Assembly: GCF_900188245.1 (NCBI RefSeq)
Contig: NZ_FZOK01000010.1
Span: forward strand, 62,001 to 126,000
DNA from: Belliella buryatensis
GTDB lineage: Bacteria > Bacteroidota > Bacteroidia > Cytophagales > Cyclobacteriaceae
Reading direction: 5' to 3'
DNA length: 64,000 nucleotides
Shown here in pieces: positions 32,371 through 41,398 of this stretch (the first letter of the stretch is position 1; the number at the start of each line of letters is the position of its first letter). The notes under the pieces are model-generated. The model had not been told where the DNA came from, searched no databases, and saw only the letters and a list, made by a program, of their open reading frames with translations. The position numbers were made by a program, and so were the translations under genes.

Positions 32371-32399
32371 ATATTGATTAATTAATTATTTGATCCTTT

Positions 32400-33077
32400 A
32401 TGAAAGTTTTGATTATCGAAGACGAAATTGAAATTGCAGAAGCTATCCACAATTACTTTCTGGGTTCTCCTGTGGTATGTGAAATAGTGACCAATGTAAA
32501 AGATGCTTCTGAAAAAATAGACCTTTATGATTATGACTGTATTCTGCTGGATATTGGTCTTCCCGATGGGTCTGGTTTTGACATTTTGGAAGAGATAAAA
32601 ATCCGTAAAAAATCTGACAGCGTGATTATTATTTCGGCGAAAAACTCCTTAGATGATAAGCTCAAAGGTTTAGAAATTGGAGCAGATGACTTTCTTACCA
32701 AGCCATTTCACATGGCTGAATTGGCCATGAGAATCACTGCTGTTACCAGAAGAAAAATGTTTGATGGGAATAATATCGTAGAATTTGGAGGCATCACCCT
32801 AGATTTAATCAATAATACTGTCAAATATAAAAATGAAAACTTGGACTTAACACCTCGTGAATTCAGACTCCTGAGATTATTCCTTTCGTCTCATCAGCGT
32901 GTTTTATCCAAAACAGCCATTGCAGATCATCTCTTAGGAGAGCAGGTTGATTTTGTAGATAGTGACAAACTTGTATATGCCCATATTAAAAACTTGAAGA
33001 AAAAATTGCAACAAGCAGGATGTCCAGAATATATTAAAACAGTATACGGTATTGGATATAAATTCAGTATCGATTGA
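32400..33077 (+). CDS. OmpR-family response regulator
   Basis: A 225-residue regulator. Receiver domain with acidic pocket E7/D8, phosphoacceptor Asp51 (LLDIGLPDGSG) and Lys101 (FLTKPF). Winged-helix DNA-binding domain follows from about 130 (LDLTPREFRLLRLFLSS; DSDKLVYAHIKNLKKKL; VYGIGYKFSI). It is followed after 21 bases by its kinase gene and then by a TonB receptor cluster. The tandem 11-bp repeat at 34466-34486 is a plausible binding site. Confidence 0.95.
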   Translation: MKVLIIEDEIEIAEAIHNYFLGSPVVCEIVTNVKDASEKIDLYDYDCILLDIGLPDGSGFDILEEIKIRKKSDSVIIISAKNSLDDKLKGLEIGADDFLTKPFHMAELAMRITAVTRRKMFDGNNIVEFGGITLDLINNTVKYKNENLDLTPREFRLLRLFLSSHQRVLSKTAIADHLLGEQVDFVDSDKLVYAHIKNLKKKLQQAGCPEYIKTVYGIGYKFSID

Positions 33078-33098
33078 TGTACAATTCAAGAAAGTATC

Positions 33099-34406
33099 AT
33101 GAAACTTTTAGATAAATCATTTAAACCATTTGTGATAATGACTACCATTTTGGTTTTGGTCAGCATTCCTTTGTTTTATTTTGTAGTCGTTTATATATAT
33201 ACTGTAGATGCTGATCAATCACTTATAAACAACAAATTACGTGTAGAGGATCAGCTCAATCATCTTCATATGCATCCAAGAACAGCAGTTATAAGAATCA
33301 GGCTTCTGAACGAATTGGATATTGGATATCAAATAATATCCATGGATACTTTTCCTGCTGAAAGGGGTGATCGGTTTTATACAGCAGAAAGATTTGACCA
33401 ATATTCAAACAGCATCAGGCCATACCGATATTTGGAAACAGTTATTGATATTTTTGACAAAGAATATCTATTGAAAGCCGAAGTCGATATGGAAGAGTAC
33501 TTTGATGTAATCCCTTACACTACGGCAGTTGCAGGGCTTTTTTTCTTTTTGATACTAATTGGATATTATTGGATCAATAGAAGCATAGCACGAAAAGTCT
33601 GGCGACCCTTTTACAAGAGCATAGATGAATTATCGAATTTAAATATTCAAAATGGCCAAACGCTTAGCCCTATTGAATCAGATATTGAAGAATTCAAGAA
33701 ACTTTCTGATAATTTACTCTTTTACACCAATAGGAGTCACTCTGCCTACATGCAGCAAAAAGAATTTACTGAAAATGCCTCACATGAATTACAAACTCCT
33801 TTGGCTATTATTCAGTCAAAAGCAGAATTACTTATACAATCTAATTTGACAAAAGAGCAATTTGAAATCGTTGACCAAATCAATTTGGCTGTCAATAGAA
33901 TGAATAGGTTAAACAAAAATTTACTTCTTTTGACCAAGCTAGAGAACAAGCAGTATCTAACCAATGAAAATGTAAATTTATCTGATGTAGTCAAAGAAAC
34001 TCTAGAGCTTTATCAATCTAATTTTGAAAGTAAAAATTTGAGTAGCTATGCTGAAATTAAAAATTCGATCATTATAAAGGGGAATATTGCTTTAATAGAG
34101 ACATTGATAAATAGTTTATTGACGAATGCTACCACTCATAATTTTGAAAATGGAAAGATCAAAGTTTACCTCAATAGTAAATCTTTGATCATTCAAAATA
34201 CGGGGAATTCAACAGCTCTTGATAAAAATAAGATTTTTAAAAGATTCAATAAAGACAATAAAAACTTAGCTGGGAGTGGCTTGGGACTTGCTATATGCAA
34301 AGAGATTGTACAATTGCATGATTTTAAAATAAGTTATAGAATGATCAATGATTTACATTCTTTTAAAATAACCAATTTTACGCCTGTTACTGAAACAGTA
34401 ATTTAG
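33099..34406 (+). CDS. Sensor histidine kinase
   Basis: A 435-residue inner-membrane kinase. Transmembrane helices at about 11-34 and 141-158 enclose a roughly 105-residue periplasmic sensor. The phosphorylated His229 is in ENASHELQTPLA. The ATP domain has N-box NSLLTNATTHN and G2 box GSGLGLAI. The G1 box reads QNTGNS, lacking the usual Asp of DxGxG, a variation known in some Bacteroidota kinases but worth noting. Its partner is the preceding response regulator. The sensor part has no recognisable domain. Confidence 0.92.
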   Translation: MKLLDKSFKPFVIMTTILVLVSIPLFYFVVVYIYTVDADQSLINNKLRVEDQLNHLHMHPRTAVIRIRLLNELDIGYQIISMDTFPAERGDRFYTAERFDQYSNSIRPYRYLETVIDIFDKEYLLKAEVDMEEYFDVIPYTTAVAGLFFFLILIGYYWINRSIARKVWRPFYKSIDELSNLNIQNGQTLSPIESDIEEFKKLSDNLLFYTNRSHSAYMQQKEFTENASHELQTPLAIIQSKAELLIQSNLTKEQFEIVDQINLAVNRMNRLNKNLLLLTKLENKQYLTNENVNLSDVVKETLELYQSNFESKNLSSYAEIKNSIIIKGNIALIETLINSLLTNATTHNFENGKIKVYLNSKSLIIQNTGNSTALDKNKIFKRFNKDNKNLAGSGLGLAICKEIVQLHDFKISYRMINDLHSFKITNFTPVTETVI

Positions 34407-34465
34407 GATAGCTTTTAAAGCTTTTTGCCAAATTTTAATACTGTTTGAGTCATATTATTAACATC

Positions 34466-34486
34466 TTCTAATTTTCTTCTAATTTG
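34466..34486. repeat. Tandem 11-bp-period direct repeat upstream of the TonB receptor gene
   Basis: TTCTAATTT occurs at 34466-34474 and again at 34477-34485, exactly 11 bp apart, ending 46 bases before the receptor ATG. OmpR/PhoB-type regulators bind direct repeats with 10-11 bp periodicity, and the adjacent TCS encodes such a regulator. The repeat is seen directly; its function is inferred. Confidence 0.5.
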
Positions 34487-34531
34487 TTTTTCAAATTTAG
34501 AGCTGAATTCGCTTCACACTGAATCCGCTCT

Positions 34532-37276
34532 ATGGGAAAACTTCTACGCATTATACTTATTTTCACCTTAAGCAGTTCGACCTTTGCTATAGCACAACAG
34601 TATACCATCAAGGGACATATTACAGATGCTAAAACTAAGGAAACGCTACCATTTGTGACAGTAATGGCTGGCCAGAATGTCTATGCTTTGGCTGATGAAA
34701 ATGGGAGATATGAGCTGAAAATAAGCTCTACTTCGGCTCGAAATATAACCTTGACTGTAAGACTCGTGGGTAAAAGAACGGAAAGAATAGAGCTATCATT
34801 GAACCCAAGTCAGAATATCATTACAAGAGATATAATCCTTCAAGACAACGACAATTACATGTCGGAAGTGGTCGTCACTGCCGAACGAGATGATGAAAAT
34901 GTGTCTGTATCCGCATTCAAGCTTGATAAAGATGTCATTGATCAGTCACAAGCTAATAGTCTTGCTGAATTACTCCAATTGATACCTGGACAAGAGATTC
35001 GAAACCCTGATTTGCAAAGTGCCCAAGCCATCAATTTCAGATCTGCCAATACAGGTCAATCTTCTCTCAACAATTCCTTCGGAATATCTATAGTTATGAA
35101 TGATAATCAGCTGAATAACAATAGCAATATGCAAGGAAGAAACCCTATTCAAACAGGCGGGTTCAACTCGCTTGGAGGTAGCAATAGTTTCAGATCCAGT
35201 TCATTTGAAGGTGGCGAAAATCCTGGTGGTGGTTTTGACCTCAGGCAAATCTCAGTGGGGAATATTGAAAAAGTAGAAGTCATCCAAGGCGTGGCATCAG
35301 CAAAATATGGGGATATGTCCAATGGTGCTATTATCATAGAAACATCTGCTGGTCAAGCCCCCCTTAACTTTTCCTTGAGGCAAGCCAGAGCTGATCAGAA
35401 TTTTCAATTATCCAAAGGATTTCAGCTATCAGAAAGACATTCCATATTTGCCAATATTGATTATTTGAATAGTCGTCCTGATTTGAGAGATGCTGTCAAA
35501 TCTTTCAACAGAGTAGGGGGAGGATTGATGTGGAGCGCATTCATAGGATCTGGTAAATTGATCAAAAACACACTGGATTTAAAATATAACACTACTTTAG
35601 ATGATTTTAGGATAGACCCAGACTTTGCCACCGAACGAAGGGTATTATATGAAAGAAGAGGTCAAACCGTTTCAAATAGAACTTACTTCAATTTAGAAAC
35701 CCCGATTTTTGACAATTTCAAAACAGTTTTTTCTTACAATGGAGGTTATGATTATTCCTTTGTTGAGCAGTTTGTCAATCCTGGTGTATTGCCAGTAACA
35801 GGATTCTTGGGCGAAGGTGTAAATGAAGGTACATTCCATCCATCTTCTTATAGAACTACTAGAGCTATTGAAGGGAAACCTGTAAATATTTCAGCCAGAC
35901 TTGACTTTTCAAAAGCCCTGGTCTACAAAAATACAGATCATAATATTTCATATGGGTTCACATACAACTTTAATGGTAATTATGGTGAAGGAAGGGTGTT
36001 TGATCCACTTAGACCACTCAGAACATCTGGGGTAGTTTCTCAATTTGGGAATGAAAGACCCTTAAGCTACAGAGAAATAAATCCCTTTTTAGAGCAGTTT
36101 GGGTTTTATATTGAAGATGGCATCAAAGGAGAGTTTTTAAATAAAGGATACAATCTCAACCTTGGCCTCAGAGTTGATAACCAATTCAATAATTGGAGTT
36201 TTTCACCAAGGATCAATTCAAGATACAATGTCAATGAAAACTTAACTTTAACTGGAGCATTCGGAATTAGCTACAAAGCCCCTGGATTAATTCACCTCTT
36301 TCCTGGCCCACAATTCCAAGATATTCCTTTGATCAATTTCTTCAATGGACGTGAAATAGAGTCACTCTACCTGGTGTATACCTATCAAAGGCCAAATGAT
36401 GCTTCTCAAGTCAGACCCATGCAGGCCTACCAAAGAGAAATTGGGGCTTATTTCAAAAAAGGTTTATTCAATGTAAGTGTGACAGCATTTTTGAACGAGA
36501 ACAAAAATGGATTCTCTGTAAATACAAATAGAGTTGGCCTAGATGTGCCCCAATATGAACTGGTAGAAGTCAGAGAAAATCAAAGACCCATCTATCAACC
36601 AACAGGCGAAGTAAGGATAGTTCCAGTCACAGAAAGACAGGTAGTAAATGGAAATTATGATAGAAGTTATGGCTTTGAAGTAGTAGCCGCTACCAAAAAA
36701 ATAGAACCTATCAACACATCTTTCAGCTTGAATTTATCTTACTATGATAGTTATTATTTCAATGATAACCTGCAATATCTGGAACGAACCAACTTTCAAC
36801 CAGGAGATCCTTTTTGGTTTGGAGTTTATTCTGGTACACAATCCCAAGGAGGAAATGCAAATGGTCTATTTACAATCAATCATCACATTTCAAAACTTGG
36901 CTTGGTCATGGCACTAAGAGGACAAGTTTTTATATATAATTATCAAAGAAGCTTTCCTTCCACTGATCGTGCAGTTGGGTATTTAAATGGCAATATGGAA
37001 TTTGTAGAAATACCAGAATCAGAAAGAGATAGTCCTTTCTATGATATCTTAAGTATAACAGAACAACAAGGTAATTATTTTAGAAGACCTGATTTCACCT
37101 ACTTCAATGCGCACTTCAACTTAAGCAAAAACCTTGGGAAAGGAATTCGTTTCTCCTTCTTCGCTAACAATTTCCTAAATATTCGACCGGAATTATTAGA
37201 TCCAACCACTGGAACTTTCCTCAGCTTCCTCAACCAAGACCCCTACTTCGGTCTAGAATTAAGATTCACATATTAA
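34532..37276 (+). CDS. TonB-dependent outer-membrane receptor
   Basis: A 914-residue receptor with signal peptide, an N-terminal carboxypeptidase-regulatory-like domain (QYTIKGHITDAKTKETLPFVTVMAG, about 24-48), a plug domain (SVSAFKLDKDVIDQSQANSLAELLQLIPG, then KVEVIQGVASAKYGDMSNGAIIIETSAG), and a 22-strand-type barrel ending LELRFTY. An Asn/Gly-rich insert sits in the plug near 200-230. No SusD partner follows, so it is not a typical glycan PUL receptor. It is the first gene after the TCS and heads a run with DUF4876, DUF6850 and cytochrome peroxidase genes. Substrate unknown; a metal complex or small organic ligand is a possibility. Confidence 0.92.
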   Translation: MGKLLRIILIFTLSSSTFAIAQQYTIKGHITDAKTKETLPFVTVMAGQNVYALADENGRYELKISSTSARNITLTVRLVGKRTERIELSLNPSQNIITRDIILQDNDNYMSEVVVTAERDDENVSVSAFKLDKDVIDQSQANSLAELLQLIPGQEIRNPDLQSAQAINFRSANTGQSSLNNSFGISIVMNDNQLNNNSNMQGRNPIQTGGFNSLGGSNSFRSSSFEGGENPGGGFDLRQISVGNIEKVEVIQGVASAKYGDMSNGAIIIETSAGQAPLNFSLRQARADQNFQLSKGFQLSERHSIFANIDYLNSRPDLRDAVKSFNRVGGGLMWSAFIGSGKLIKNTLDLKYNTTLDDFRIDPDFATERRVLYERRGQTVSNRTYFNLETPIFDNFKTVFSYNGGYDYSFVEQFVNPGVLPVTGFLGEGVNEGTFHPSSYRTTRAIEGKPVNISARLDFSKALVYKNTDHNISYGFTYNFNGNYGEGRVFDPLRPLRTSGVVSQFGNERPLSYREINPFLEQFGFYIEDGIKGEFLNKGYNLNLGLRVDNQFNNWSFSPRINSRYNVNENLTLTGAFGISYKAPGLIHLFPGPQFQDIPLINFFNGREIESLYLVYTYQRPNDASQVRPMQAYQREIGAYFKKGLFNVSVTAFLNENKNGFSVNTNRVGLDVPQYELVEVRENQRPIYQPTGEVRIVPVTERQVVNGNYDRSYGFEVVAATKKIEPINTSFSLNLSYYDSYYFNDNLQYLERTNFQPGDPFWFGVYSGTQSQGGNANGLFTINHHISKLGLVMALRGQVFIYNYQRSFPSTDRAVGYLNGNMEFVEIPESERDSPFYDILSITEQQGNYFRRPDFTYFNAHFNLSKNLGKGIRFSFFANNFLNIRPELLDPTTGTFLSFLNQDPYFGLELRFTY

Positions 37277-37291
37277 CTAAAATACACACCT

Positions 37292-38608
37292 ATGAAAAAA
37301 TTATTTTCAAAAATTATGCTGGCTGGAATTGTAGCCTTTTCACTAGCATGCTCTGAAAGAGATGATAGTCCAAGAGTAGAACCAACTGATGTAACTATAC
37401 AAGTCAACCATAGTGAAGATTTCGATCAAGAACCTGCTCAAGGAAGTAAGGTTACTTTAAGAAATACAACTTCTCAACAAACTTTTGAAGGTGAAACCAC
37501 AGCTGATGGCTCAATCATCTTTGAAGCTGTTCCAAGTGGAATATATGATATCAGCGCAACGATCACCATGGATGCTGAAGCATTCTTTAATTTTGCCGGA
37601 TACCTTCCTGATGGGGAAGAGGTAGTTTTTAACGCCAACCAAACTGCTGTACCCATCAACACCACGGCTTCATCCTTTACGGTAGAACTTCTAGCTGGTA
37701 GACTTGGTAACCTTGTGATCAAACAAGTATATGCTGCAGGATCTGATAGAGTAGACGGAGCACTCTTCAGAGATCAATTCATAGAAATTCATAACAACTC
37801 CACAGAAACTCAATACATGGATGGTCTATACATCATGGGAGTATTGGGAAGATTGGCAAATTCAGTTCAAGACTTCACTCAACCTGATGGACAATGGGAC
37901 TGGACCAAATCTGTAGGAATGAATGCAGAAGGCGACCCAAATACTGATTATGTATACTCCAAGTGGTTGTACCAATTCCCAGGTTCTGGACAGCAATATC
38001 CCGTAGAACCAGGCGCTAGCATCATTTTAGCAGCTACTGCTGTCAATCACAAAGCTCCTTTTGAAGGAAACGACGGCAATACAATTACTGTCAACAATCC
38101 AGACTTAACAGTAAACCTTAGTAATGCCGATTTTGAAGTATACCTCGGAGATGACGTCCCTACACCATTAGCTTCAGATATTGATAATCAATCTGTTCCA
38201 AATATGTTAAACATCCAATGGCAAGGCACTGATTTGATTTTAGATAATAGAGGGAGAGAGTCAGTGGTAATATTTGCTTCTGATGTTGATGTCAGAACTT
38301 TTCCGAGATATGCCACGCCTAATTCACAAAATATCACAAACAATACCGTTTTAAGATATCAAATCCCTAAATCACTGATCATTGATGGTGTAGAAGGACA
38401 AGAGTCTCCGACTAATCAAGTTCCTAAGATGCTTCCGGTTGATATTGATGCTGGATTCTTCTATGTACCAGGTGGCTCATTTTCTTCTGAAGCAGGATTT
38501 AGATTGACAGCCAATACTTTCGGTGATAGAAGAGTGATGAAAGATTCTAATAACTCTGAGAATGACATTATAGGGAAAAAAGCTGATCCAAAAGGATTTG
38601 CAGATTAA
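37292..38608 (+). CDS. DUF4876-like lipoprotein
   Basis: A 438-residue lipoprotein (lipobox SLAC, Cys20). An N-terminal transthyretin/prealbumin-like repeat (GSKVTLRNTTSQQTFEG, then IIFEAVPSGIYDISATI, about 50-90) is followed by a domain with LGNLVIKQVYAAG, DQFIEIHNNSTETQYMDGLYI and FPRYATPN, the layout of DUF4876. Found 15 bases after the TonB receptor gene. Surface-exposed lipoproteins next to TonB receptors often capture the ligand; that role is inferred here. Confidence 0.8.
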   Translation: MKKLFSKIMLAGIVAFSLACSERDDSPRVEPTDVTIQVNHSEDFDQEPAQGSKVTLRNTTSQQTFEGETTADGSIIFEAVPSGIYDISATITMDAEAFFNFAGYLPDGEEVVFNANQTAVPINTTASSFTVELLAGRLGNLVIKQVYAAGSDRVDGALFRDQFIEIHNNSTETQYMDGLYIMGVLGRLANSVQDFTQPDGQWDWTKSVGMNAEGDPNTDYVYSKWLYQFPGSGQQYPVEPGASIILAATAVNHKAPFEGNDGNTITVNNPDLTVNLSNADFEVYLGDDVPTPLASDIDNQSVPNMLNIQWQGTDLILDNRGRESVVIFASDVDVRTFPRYATPNSQNITNNTVLRYQIPKSLIIDGVEGQESPTNQVPKMLPVDIDAGFFYVPGGSFSSEAGFRLTANTFGDRRVMKDSNNSENDIIGKKADPKGFAD

Positions 38609-38624
38609 GACTATCTATTCAAAA

Positions 38625-38647
38625 AAGGGGGGATATTTCTCCCCCTT
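38625..38647 (+). terminator. Hairpin between the DUF4876 and DUF6850 genes
   Basis: AAGGGGG (38625-38631) pairs with CCCCCTT (38641-38647) around a 9-nt loop. No long T-tract follows, so it may be a partial terminator or mRNA-stability element that lowers expression of the genes behind it. Confidence 0.5.
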
Positions 38648-38680
38648 CTCTATTCTAAAACAGAGTATCGTTCTCTATCT

Positions 38681-40204
38681 ATGAAAAAACTATTCTACAT
38701 ATTAATCCTTTTAAACTTTAACTTTTCGGTCTTCGCTCAACAGGCTGACTGGAATGAAAAACTGCTCTTGAAAAGCACTCAAGTGTATTTGGATCAATTC
38801 GCGATCCAACCACTACGATCGACCTTGATAGGGCAGGAATTTGGGTTTAGTGGTGCTTATTGGGATTATACAGATGGAGAATTTCATACCATCCAAATGC
38901 CAGAAAAGGAAAGAAACTATGGGTTCTTTAGCTATGGCAATAGGGAAGTAAAAGGTTGGTTAATAGAAGGATACTTCCGGTATCAAAATCAAAAGCAAGA
39001 CAGTGTAGGGTGGAAGCAAACGAGAAATGTTAACGAAACTCCTTATTACTATGGCAATATTAGGCGAGGAAATTGGAGAAATGAAATTTTCAATTCCTAC
39101 ATCAATGCCAGCAAGTTTTTCTTTGGAGATAAACTAGGAATTGGAATTGGTGTAGACTACTCACTGCAAACCCACAGCAGAGGAAATGATCCAAGGCCTT
39201 TGATTAATTACTATTTAATCAAACCAAAGGTACAAATCTCCTATCGGTTTATTGAGAATCATCAAATAGCAGCAGGTGTACAAATCTTGAGTGCAAAGGA
39301 AAGAGGATCTGTATCTAATTTCAATCAAAGCAATGATAGCTTTGGACGTTCAGAATATAATATTTATACCATGATGGGAGGTGCTTCTTTCAATTTACTA
39401 AGAAGACCCAATTACGAATTATTTGATGAAGGTTATGGCATTTCAGCTGCTTATTACTACACTGGTGAAAACCTCAAAATAAGTAATGAATTCAATTACT
39501 CTCTTTCCCAAAAACAATTCAATAGAAGAGGGGTAGAAGGATCTCAAAGAATTTTTGAAGAAATCGGCTTTTATGATATCGACATAATCGAAAATAAAAT
39601 CTTTGTAGAATACCAGAATCAAAGCAGCGTAATTCAAGCAGTAGGAAAGCTACAAGTCAGCCAAGGAACTGATTTCAATAACCTATTGGTTGGGAACAAC
39701 TTCCAGCAAGATGATTATAGTTATGGCTTGGATATTTTCTATACCTTCAAAAATCTAAATAATTTCAATTTATACTCCACGATTAATCATAATACGCATG
39801 CTATGCGGGATTTTAATGCAAGTCATGCTTATGAAATCATCAATTTTAACTATGGTATTGGTGCTCAATTCCCATTAAAGGTTTCCAAAAAATTGACCTT
39901 TTACCCTGAACTTTCGATCAATTGGAATCAGAATCTAGACCAAATTGTAAACATCATTCCCAATCAAATCAATGTCGTCAGTAGAAGCATCATGATTCCA
40001 AATATTGACTATTTCAGTTCTGAATTTAGACAAATCCAGGCAACACTATCAGCTAGATACAGCTTGGGAAAATTTGATCTTAACCCAGTCATATTTGGTA
40101 ACTTCAACAATTTTCAACCATTAACTACACTCAATTCGGACTATTTTGAAATAAGGAATACACAAAGACAGACCATAGGATTCAGCATCAATTTTATCCA
40201 TTGA
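38681..40204 (+). CDS. DUF6850-like outer-membrane beta-barrel protein
   Basis: A 507-residue protein with signal peptide (MKKLFYILILLNFNFSVFAQ). The whole mature part is alternating beta strands with many Tyr/Phe/Asn turns (for example FIENHQIAAGVQIL, GYGISAAYYYTGENLKI), ending in FSINFIH. This is the layout of the DUF6850 barrels that accompany DUF4876 lipoproteins in Bacteroidota. Function not established; possibly an accessory pore. Confidence 0.75.
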   Translation: MKKLFYILILLNFNFSVFAQQADWNEKLLLKSTQVYLDQFAIQPLRSTLIGQEFGFSGAYWDYTDGEFHTIQMPEKERNYGFFSYGNREVKGWLIEGYFRYQNQKQDSVGWKQTRNVNETPYYYGNIRRGNWRNEIFNSYINASKFFFGDKLGIGIGVDYSLQTHSRGNDPRPLINYYLIKPKVQISYRFIENHQIAAGVQILSAKERGSVSNFNQSNDSFGRSEYNIYTMMGGASFNLLRRPNYELFDEGYGISAAYYYTGENLKISNEFNYSLSQKQFNRRGVEGSQRIFEEIGFYDIDIIENKIFVEYQNQSSVIQAVGKLQVSQGTDFNNLLVGNNFQQDDYSYGLDIFYTFKNLNNFNLYSTINHNTHAMRDFNASHAYEIINFNYGIGAQFPLKVSKKLTFYPELSINWNQNLDQIVNIIPNQINVVSRSIMIPNIDYFSSEFRQIQATLSARYSLGKFDLNPVIFGNFNNFQPLTTLNSDYFEIRNTQRQTIGFSINFIH

Positions 40205-40235
40205 TTGTCAAACCCAAATAATTTAGAGTTATCAA

Positions 40236-41360
40236 ATGACTAAGCGTAAAATCATCATATTATCTACCATTACTTTGCTGACCTGTATAGGATGGGTTCA
40301 AGTCTCTCAGAAGTATACAGCGGACCAACTCAGACAAATTTATTCTCAGCCATCTGAACATTGGCCTGAGCCACATGTAGACGAGGATGTTGAATTTAGA
40401 GAAATTGGCTTGATGCCTGACAATCCGTATAGAAATGTAGATTCCCTCAAACCAGTGATCGAATTAGGTAAAGTACTTTTCTTTGACCCTAGATTATCTT
40501 CATCAAATCAAATCAGCTGTGCTACTTGTCATGATCCAGAATTAGGCTGGTCAAATGGAAGATCTCAATCTGTAGGTCATAACCATCAAGTAGGAAAAAG
40601 AAACTCTCCAGGGCTCAACAATATTTGGCAAACAGAACCTCTTTTCTGGGATGGTAGAGCTGCCACTCTGGAAGAACAAGCCTTGATGCCTGTGGAAGAT
40701 CCGATAGAAATGCACCAGAAAATTCATTTTTTACCAACGAAGCTTTCCAAAATTGAAGGATACAAGAAATACTTCATAGAAGCCTTTGGAGATGATTCTG
40801 TTACAACAGAAAGACTTTCCTCTGCTCTTGCTTATTTCCAACGATCCTTAACAAGTCGTACAAGTGACTTTGACCAATTTATGAAAGGGAGAAAAGATGC
40901 ACTTTCTGACGAAGCTATCCAAGGAATGCATTTATTCAGGACAAAAGCCCGATGCATCAATTGCCATAACGGACCATTTTTTACCGACAATAAATTTCAT
41001 AATCTAGGCTTACACTTCTATGGAGGAAGGTTTGAAGATTTAGGTAGATTTGATTTTACAGGTGATCCAAAAGATATTGGCAAGTTTAAAACTCCTTCAC
41101 TGAGAGATGTCATGTATACAGGACCATGGATGCACAATGGCTTCTTCAATGATATCATGGGAATCATGCAGATGTATGATAATGGGATGGCAAGACCCAA
41201 ACCACGACCTGGAATGGAAGATGATCCAAACTTTCCTGAAACATCACATTTACTCAAGAAACTAGACTTGTCACTGGAAGAAAAAGAACACTTAATTGCC
41301 TTTCTTCATGCACTCTCTGCACCAAATTTTAGAATGGCAAGACCTGAAATCCCTAAATAA
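40236..41360 (+). CDS. Di-haem cytochrome c peroxidase (CCP/MauG family)
   Basis: A 374-residue periplasmic or membrane-anchored protein with an N-terminal hydrophobic helix (about 5-22). Two c-type haem sites: CATCH (Cys95-His99) and CINCH (Cys240-His244). Typical flanking blocks are LGKVLFFDPRLSSSNQISC, RNSPGLNNIWQTEPLFWDGRA and KFKTPSLRDVMYTGPWMHNG. The family reduces H2O2 or oxidises exported substrates. It is the last gene of the cluster with the TonB receptor, followed by a terminator. Its place in the cluster suggests oxidative processing of the imported ligand, but peroxide defence is also possible. Confidence 0.93.
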   Translation: MTKRKIIILSTITLLTCIGWVQVSQKYTADQLRQIYSQPSEHWPEPHVDEDVEFREIGLMPDNPYRNVDSLKPVIELGKVLFFDPRLSSSNQISCATCHDPELGWSNGRSQSVGHNHQVGKRNSPGLNNIWQTEPLFWDGRAATLEEQALMPVEDPIEMHQKIHFLPTKLSKIEGYKKYFIEAFGDDSVTTERLSSALAYFQRSLTSRTSDFDQFMKGRKDALSDEAIQGMHLFRTKARCINCHNGPFFTDNKFHNLGLHFYGGRFEDLGRFDFTGDPKDIGKFKTPSLRDVMYTGPWMHNGFFNDIMGIMQMYDNGMARPKPRPGMEDDPNFPETSHLLKKLDLSLEEKEHLIAFLHALSAPNFRMARPEIPK

Positions 41361-41365
41361 AAAAA

Positions 41366-41398
41366 AAGAGGCTGTCCCTACATACGAGACAGTCTCTT
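41366..41398. terminator. Terminator ending the TonB/peroxidase cluster
   Basis: Arms AAGAGGCTGTC (41366-41376) and GACAGTCTCTT (41388-41398) pair over 11 bp with one G-T wobble. It lies between converging genes and has an A-run on the left, so it can terminate both strands. Confidence 0.85.

Follow-up and report, generated by a model that had tools for sequence, protein, structure and literature searches.

The window analysed here is a 64,000-nucleotide stretch of the Belliella buryatensis genome (assembly GCF_900188245.1, contig NZ_FZOK01000010.1, positions 62,001 to 126,000), in which six plus-strand genes encode an OmpR-type response regulator (RR), a sensor histidine kinase (HK), a TonB-dependent receptor, a DUF4876 lipoprotein, a DUF6850 protein and a di-haem protein of the CCP/MauG superfamily (CCP, for cytochrome c peroxidase). 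A first-pass annotation of the sequence had named these genes, and all six are present as open reading frames (ORFs) at the coordinates of Table 1 with nothing intervening; the family it gave to each protein is upheld by a Pfam score over the curated cut-off. Its grouping of the six as a single unit was not borne out: the locus splits into an RR-HK pair and a four-gene cassette, and it is the cassette of receptor, DUF4876, DUF6850 and di-haem CCP/MauG that forms the conserved unit.

Because an RF1-domain gene precedes the response regulator with a gap of 29 nt (32371-32399), a gap of 125 nt (34407-34531) lies between kinase and receptor, and a strong stem-loop follows the CCP gene, the four cassette genes look like a separate transcription unit. 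Stem-loops also recur in the gap between DUF4876 and DUF6850, with differing stem sequences, both in the window and at other loci (L027, L028, L029, L030, L034, L082 and L092), and of 21 loci whose gaps measure at least 28 nt, 11 have z below -2 when compared with mononucleotide shuffles. Such a structure may cause the two halves of the operon to be expressed at unequal levels.

Table 1. Genes and sequence features of the locus (window coordinates)
Feature	Position	Strand	Supporting data
OmpR-type response regulator	32400..33077	+	Response_reg 84.5 bits, Trans_reg_C 71.1 bits
PorY-family sensor histidine kinase	33099..34406	+	HisKA and HATPase_c; NF052314 392.9 bits (cut-off 350)
Receptor-promoter direct repeat TTCTAATTTTCTTCTAA (11-bp period), a possible OmpR-type site or else a degenerate Fur box	34466..34482	+	
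TonB-dependent receptor with CarboxypepD_reg-like N-terminal domain	34532..37276	+	Pfam CarbopepD_reg_2, Plug and TonB barrel over cut-off
DUF4876 lipoprotein	37292..38608	+	PF16215 86.8 bits (cut-off 27.9)
Stem-loop between DUF4876 and DUF6850	38625..38647	+	whole 75-nt gap -16.6 kcal/mol, z only -1.5
DUF6850 outer-membrane beta-barrel (predicted)	38681..40204	+	PF21012 178.3 bits (cut-off 27)
MauG-type di-haem c-type enzyme	40236..41360	+	CCP_MauG 172.5 bits (cut-off 25.6)
Stem-loop, probable terminator, between the cassette and a convergent M14 peptidase gene	41366..41398	.	-15.9 kcal/mol, z -5.9

Conservation and distribution of the cassette

A profile built from five DUF4876 proteins and scanned against species genomes returned 133 relatives, and the best 80, which we call type A, were retained; this sample of loci was thus picked for closeness to the DUF4876 type of the window. 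The first-pass annotation had held that the four downstream genes work together, and across these loci they are indeed co-conserved: receptor, DUF4876, DUF6850 and CCP stand in that order on one strand in 67 of the 80, and near DUF4876 there is a receptor in 75, a DUF6850 gene in 79 and a CCP gene in 76. The 13 loci without the exact order are accounted for by a contig end (L029, L035, L057, L075 and L100), split genes (L033 and L052), a divergent CCP gene just upstream (L040, L090 and L104) or no nearby CCP (L058, L066 and L076). Together with one locus that stops at a contig edge, this last group makes up the four that have no CCP near DUF4876, and the genomes of all three carry the same CCP subfamily elsewhere, at 484, 502 and 475 bits, where the best other CCP scores 238. 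DUF6850 is split or shortened at L019/L033 and L052 (in Nitritalea apparently CCP too), through decay or sequencing error. A larger conserved operon was considered and rejected, as the most widespread flanking family within seven genes on either side is confined to 13 of 80 loci, those of Flavobacterium and a close relative.

The same association emerges from an unselected sample of 392 genomes across the phylum, in which the CCP subfamily was called at E values up to 1e-90 (our own threshold) with at most five candidates scored per genome. The subfamily occurs in 24 genomes at 26 loci, Pfam DUF4876 in 39 genomes, and type-A DUF4876 (at least 366 bits, against 232 for the next match) in eight. 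All eight, the window's own genome included, are among the 24 (Fisher p 6e-11, uncorrected for kinship). The two genes are adjacent in five of the eight, with adjacency in G295, G423 and G465 judged from coordinates only, and apart in G400, G154 and G491; G400 and L066 seem to stem from one genome, since their CCPs agree in place and score. Restriction of the CCP to DUF4876 operons is ruled out: five of its 26 loci lie beside type-A DUF4876 and five beside other DUF4876 genes, nine are in SusC/SusD operons (SusD called by Pfam in two, and in the rest by layout and resemblance) and seven stand alone. Conversely, 16 DUF4876 loci that have no adjacent CCP (L174-L189) keep the receptor in 16 cases and DUF6850 in 14.

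Several other arrangements were seen along the way. Eight loci from one flavobacterial genus (L154-L157, L159, L162, L163 and L168) are operons of FecR (by Pfam in L159), SusC, SusD, a lipoprotein and the same CCP subfamily, the lipoprotein being about 490 aa long with no Pfam match. A divergent outer-membrane barrel gene (OMP_b-brl_3) adjoins the lone CCP at L153. In some DUF4876 operons that lack CCP, the fourth gene encodes a conserved protein of 267-288 aa with no Pfam match (L015:11749-12549, L016:11947-12810, L017:7036-7872), and genome G043 has three near-identical DUF4876 regions (L016, L025 and L026), flanks included, on three contigs.

Regulatory sequences and regulators of the cassette

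An inverted-repeat scan of the cassette promoters returned a recurrent 7-1-7 palindrome that matches a predicted binding site of the iron regulator Fur. With agreement to the Fur box TTAGAATNATTCTAA required at no fewer than 12 of its 14 positions, 31 of the 70 cassette promoters qualify, compared with 15 of 593 for other ORFs at the same loci; in the form TTTAGAATNATTCTAAA, at 13 or more of 16 positions, the counts are 41/70 and 26/593. The p-values of these comparisons overstate the enrichment, because the motif derives from these very promoters and many of the loci are closely related. The Fur box predicted in Riemerella anatipestifer, ATTTAGAATTATTCTAAAT, is identical in sequence to the cassette box, and purified Fur of that species shifts four box-bearing promoters in electrophoretic mobility shift assays (PMC5609570). 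A DtxR-like motif, TTTAGNCTAAA, is enriched too, with perfect copies in 14/70 cassette promoters versus 13/593.

On account of the Fur-box enrichment, the most likely ligand of the cassette is iron, and we consider this identification quite probable. Published expression data point the same way: the DUF4876 loci PG1019-1022, BT1933-39 and BT3625-33 are up under iron depletion (PMC10434189), and a DUF4876 gene of Porphyromonas gingivalis responds to haemin (PMC10470040). The earlier proposal that the system takes up a scarce ligand is supported by the boxes and by the iron-starvation data (PMC10434189).

Of three genomes searched for the perfect 15-mer, two have a single copy, located at the cassette, and the third, that of L036, has none. 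With one mismatch allowed, boxes in Pedobacter lie upstream of sdhC (two genomes), a cytochrome gene (three) and an aconitase gene (one), and in one genome twin boxes precede a siderophore receptor that scores over the TIGR01783 cut-off. This twin-box layout is common to the Pedobacter siderophore receptor at L206, where the boxes are 60 bp apart, and the cassette, where they are 58 bp apart. The idea that split systems bear boxes at both halves was tried and dropped, being clear only in G154 (receptor 14/16, CCP 14/16); among other separate CCP genes, L166, L167 (the gene of L108) and L110 score 9 or 10, and L109 scores 13 at the edge of its region.

The RR-HK pair had been regarded in the first-pass annotation as part of the system, and in general it is not: a pair like that of the window lies near the cassette in three of the 80 loci (L027, L028 and L030), all from Belliella and 70-99% identical, with the regulator relatives before the cassette at 76-99% identity in these three only, and the widespread regulatory element is the Fur box. 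We likewise rejected the idea that the cassette generally has a regulator or kinase beside it, since beyond Belliella there are only unrelated kinase-like genes (L031 and L038, 19-22% identity) or short receivers of 118-121 aa (L061, L063, L064 and L069). The window kinase is its genome's only match to NF052314 (PorY family) over the cut-off. PorX, the partner of PorY, carries a PglZ domain; the regulator adjacent to the window kinase has Response_reg and Trans_reg_C only, with no PglZ domain of the PorX type, PorX not having been sought elsewhere in the genome.

The di-haem enzyme and the outer-membrane proteins

The window di-haem gene is the sole CCP_MauG match in a 3.88 Mb genome, and its product has CxxCH motifs at residues 95-99 and 240-244. 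It had been called a peroxidase, and the two haem sites and the family assignment stand; the plain label needs qualifying, as the ligand residue is of the MauG type. Specifically, Tyr314 aligns with residue 294 of MauG, a tyrosine that we take to be the axial haem ligand, and it is kept in all 76 sequences that extend to the column. Tyr314, both CxxCH motifs, Trp138 and Trp105 are invariant in all of the 77 CCP sequences that reach the respective column. Bacterial cytochrome c peroxidases have an axial methionine at the second haem; alignments of the window CCP with peroxidases end before that column, and it is the MauG alignment that puts tyrosine there. Over the full length, di-haem cytochrome c peroxidases head the PDB sequence matches (1iqc at E 1.9e-49), with MauG entries at 1.9e-22 or weaker, and over the C-terminal part the best match, ahead of the peroxidases, is 6e1c ('Di-heme enzyme'), presumably MbnH. 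The NCBIfam models for MauG (TIGR03791, 233.1 bits, cut-off 443.85) and MbnH (TIGR04039, 202.3 bits, cut-off 362.85) are both missed by the window CCP.

In the DUF4876 lipoprotein, which matched no NCBIfam model, C20 is the lipoprotein cysteine, and none of the 81 type-A sequences, the window's among them, lacks it. Trp204, in a GQ[FYW]DW loop, is equally invariant (81/81), as is His253. A wider alignment of 46 DUF4876 proteins shows Trp204 in each of the 17 type-A rows that were included, as well as in L190 and L174 (type A by score), and lacks it in 22 of 23 proteins whose genes have no adjacent CCP; one earlier alignment placed a Trp of L020 in the same column. The AlphaFold2 model (pLDDT 90.3) matches BT_1938 (4q1z) over residues 105-437 with Z 30.3, rmsd 2.4 and 264 aligned residues, and its N-terminus matches transthyretin-like domains. 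A surface-export signal, taken as at least two acidic residues among the six positions that follow the lipid cysteine, was set aside as weak (56/81, versus 13/34 other lipobox ORFs).

The DUF6850 model (pLDDT 90.8) has about 18 long strands, and its best structural matches are outer-membrane barrels (CymA at Z 19.0, FadL and TonB receptors); we are confident in predicting an outer-membrane barrel. The receptor matches generic siderophore, haem and B12 models of NCBIfam, all far under cut-off. It had been described as a receptor without SusD, and indeed Pfam gives no SusD match in the six window genes.

Proposed function, rival readings and related systems

We read the cassette as a TonB-dependent operon for uptake of an iron complex, in which the MauG-type enzyme most likely oxidises an operon partner, and give this reading as a whole about an even chance. 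In this scheme the receptor would import the iron complex, its capture at the outer membrane would fall to the DUF4876 lipoprotein, the DUF6850 barrel would be an outer-membrane accessory, and Fur would repress the operon in many carriers. The periplasmic enzyme would most likely oxidise its partner and not remove peroxide alone; whether its role is modifying or detoxifying strikes us as a roughly balanced question. The first candidate target would be Trp204 of the lipoprotein, modified before the protein reaches the membrane, much as a tryptophan in the copper site of the surface protein MopE becomes kynurenine, for which the MauG-like SACCP is a possible catalyst only (PMC3621798). That Trp204 is the target is a minority bet, and rather unlikely on present showing. 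The boldest version we regard as unlikely: that a Fur-regulated, receptor-linked MauG-type enzyme turns the invariant tryptophan of an outer-membrane lipoprotein into an oxidised residue that binds iron. This would be a counterpart, for iron, of the copper kynurenine system of MopE, widespread in Bacteroidota, its enzyme subfamily having been repeatedly recruited to other TonB receptor operons.

A number of observations weigh against this reading. The cassette is patchy: Pfam DUF4876 is found in 10 of 148 genomes of the window's family (the receptor-DUF4876-CCP locus being in G000, G040, G143, G146, G038, with split genes, and G142, and not in the other four) and in three of four genomes of the genus, the Belliella-genus genome G108 lacking it. 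Fur-box matches stay below 13/16 in 29 of 70 cassette promoters, and the one-mismatch counts in three Pedobacter genomes (12 to 0, 10 to 6 and 5 to 4 against a reversed-pattern control) are clearly above control in one; of the Pedobacter sites examined, L207 precedes an MFS gene, and L208 and L212 lie within coding sequence. By Pfam, the cassette has no inner-membrane permease. The Trp204 loop is absent in five CCP-linked DUF4876 proteins of other clades (L169-L173), and because of this, and of the 9/26 CCP loci in SusC/SusD operons and 7/26 alone, we reject Trp204 as a general target of the enzyme. Finally, the CCP tree (66 sequences, 37 of them type A, picked from those found) is at odds with DUF4876 type: 10 changes of the type-A label are required, of which supported branches force seven or more, and the three divergent CCP copies group with CCPs from other DUF4876 operons and lone CCPs. 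By these label changes, the tree indicates that CCP genes moved between DUF4876 types and contexts. Since the CCP was repeatedly joined to receptor operons, the pattern favours a working link with these operons over hitch-hiking.

The enzyme could instead be an ordinary periplasmic peroxidase that clears H2O2 made, or made dangerous, by iron handling and modifies nothing. The full-length PDB matches to peroxidases speak for this, as does the occurrence of the subfamily beside varied receptors and alone, as a general protector would be; the constancy of the MauG-type tyrosine and the C-terminal resemblance to 6e1c, presumably MbnH, speak against it, and we hold it to be somewhat improbable. Oxidation of an imported chelator, freeing iron and leaving the protein partners unchanged, would suit the occurrence of the CCP in receptor operons of both the DUF4876 and the SusC/SusD kind (19/26 CCP loci). 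We think it unlikely, as we know of no enzyme of the CCP/MauG superfamily that acts on a siderophore, a point on which the literature was not searched. Another alternative keeps the uptake role and changes the metal to copper or zinc. MauG-like enzymes and partner proteins, MopE/SACCP included, are linked to copper (PMC3621798), and cobW-family GTPase genes (Pfam), to which zinc would fit too, lie near two DUF4876 operons without CCP (L017:13592-14785 and L175:3248-4456). Set against this are the Fur-box enrichment, the iron-rich enzymes preceded by other boxes in the same genomes and the induction of DUF4876 loci by iron starvation (PMC10434189), and we find copper or zinc distinctly unlikely.

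The control of the Belliella cassette is a closer call. There the Fur box is absent or degenerate, with best matches of 11 or 12 of 16 (L027, L028 and L030), so that for the window copy iron control is presumed by analogy with relatives, a further point against the reading above. In the L027 promoter, which is near-identical to that of the window, the box scores 11/16, at chance level, and a repeat of the half-site TTCTAA is present. This repeat, TTCTAATTTTCTTCTAA, has an 11-bp period, the spacing expected for OmpR-type sites, and aligns across the promoters of L027, L028 and L030; the exact pattern occurs in three of 70 cassette promoters, all from Belliella, and in none of 593 controls. It fits, with moderate support, control of the receptor promoter by a two-component system in this genus; kinase and regulator lie directly upstream in the window and in the three Belliella loci long enough to show it. 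Genome-wide enrichment is not seen, however, with four exact matches at three places in the window genome versus seven in the control, and the repeat may instead be what is left of a Fur box, given that the half-site ATTCTAA persists in L028 and L030. One of the three places lies behind the genome's second RR-HK pair (L225:6987-10669), where three TTCTAA units at the 11-bp period precede a 501-aa gene. That the adjacent two-component system, and not Fur, governs the Belliella cassette, possibly in response to an envelope or peroxide signal instead of iron, has in our view nearly an even prospect; the system probably took over or joined the control of the cassette.

Taken as an iron-uptake operon with a modifying enzyme, the cassette offers a testable function for two domains of unknown function and for a MauG-like branch that has no known substrate, and places all three in the iron regulon of numerous Bacteroidota that live in soil, in the sea or with a host. 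Spending two haems on one enzyme under an iron-starvation promoter is odd, and for that reason informative. If the lipoprotein is oxidatively matured for iron capture, this would be a new step in bacterial iron acquisition.

Of the related systems, the MauG-like ones share the enzyme. MauG itself has two CxxCH haems and the axial tyrosine position in common with the window CCP, but its gene neighbours differ and its TIGR03791 cut-off is missed. In MbnP/MbnH, a MauG-like enzyme adjoins a partner protein, often with a TonB receptor near (PMC3621798); in contrast, the window CCP falls below the TIGR04039 cut-off, the lipoprotein has no NCBIfam match, and among the families shown none of the other five window proteins matches an MbnP model. 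The methanotroph pairs MopE/SACCP and CorA/CorB combine a surface-associated MopE with modified tryptophan, a MauG-like di-haem partner and copper-responsive genes (PMC3621798). They differ in responding to copper and not iron and in lacking DUF4876, whose modification is putative. The Riemerella Fur regulon shares the box sequence, and its sdh and aconitase genes are likewise iron-responsive, although the cassette is not among the targets named in the available part of that report (PMC5609570). Further counterparts are PG1019-1022 of P. gingivalis and BT1938-39/BT3625-33 of Bacteroides thetaiotaomicron, which likewise pair DUF4876 with a TonB receptor and are induced by iron depletion, and whose BT_1938 shares the fold of the window DUF4876. 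Unlike the cassette, they have no di-haem enzyme named in the excerpted text (PMC10434189), and BT3625-33 has PepSY and ABC genes in its place. A receptor with DUF4876 as an iron-regulated locus is thus already published (PMC10434189), and the open-licence literature that we searched yielded no description of a cassette with a MauG-type enzyme and Fur-box control. We accordingly file the cassette as TonB-dependent iron uptake with an added MauG-type enzyme, in which receptor and DUF4876 are the known part and the enzyme and Fur-box control are the new one.

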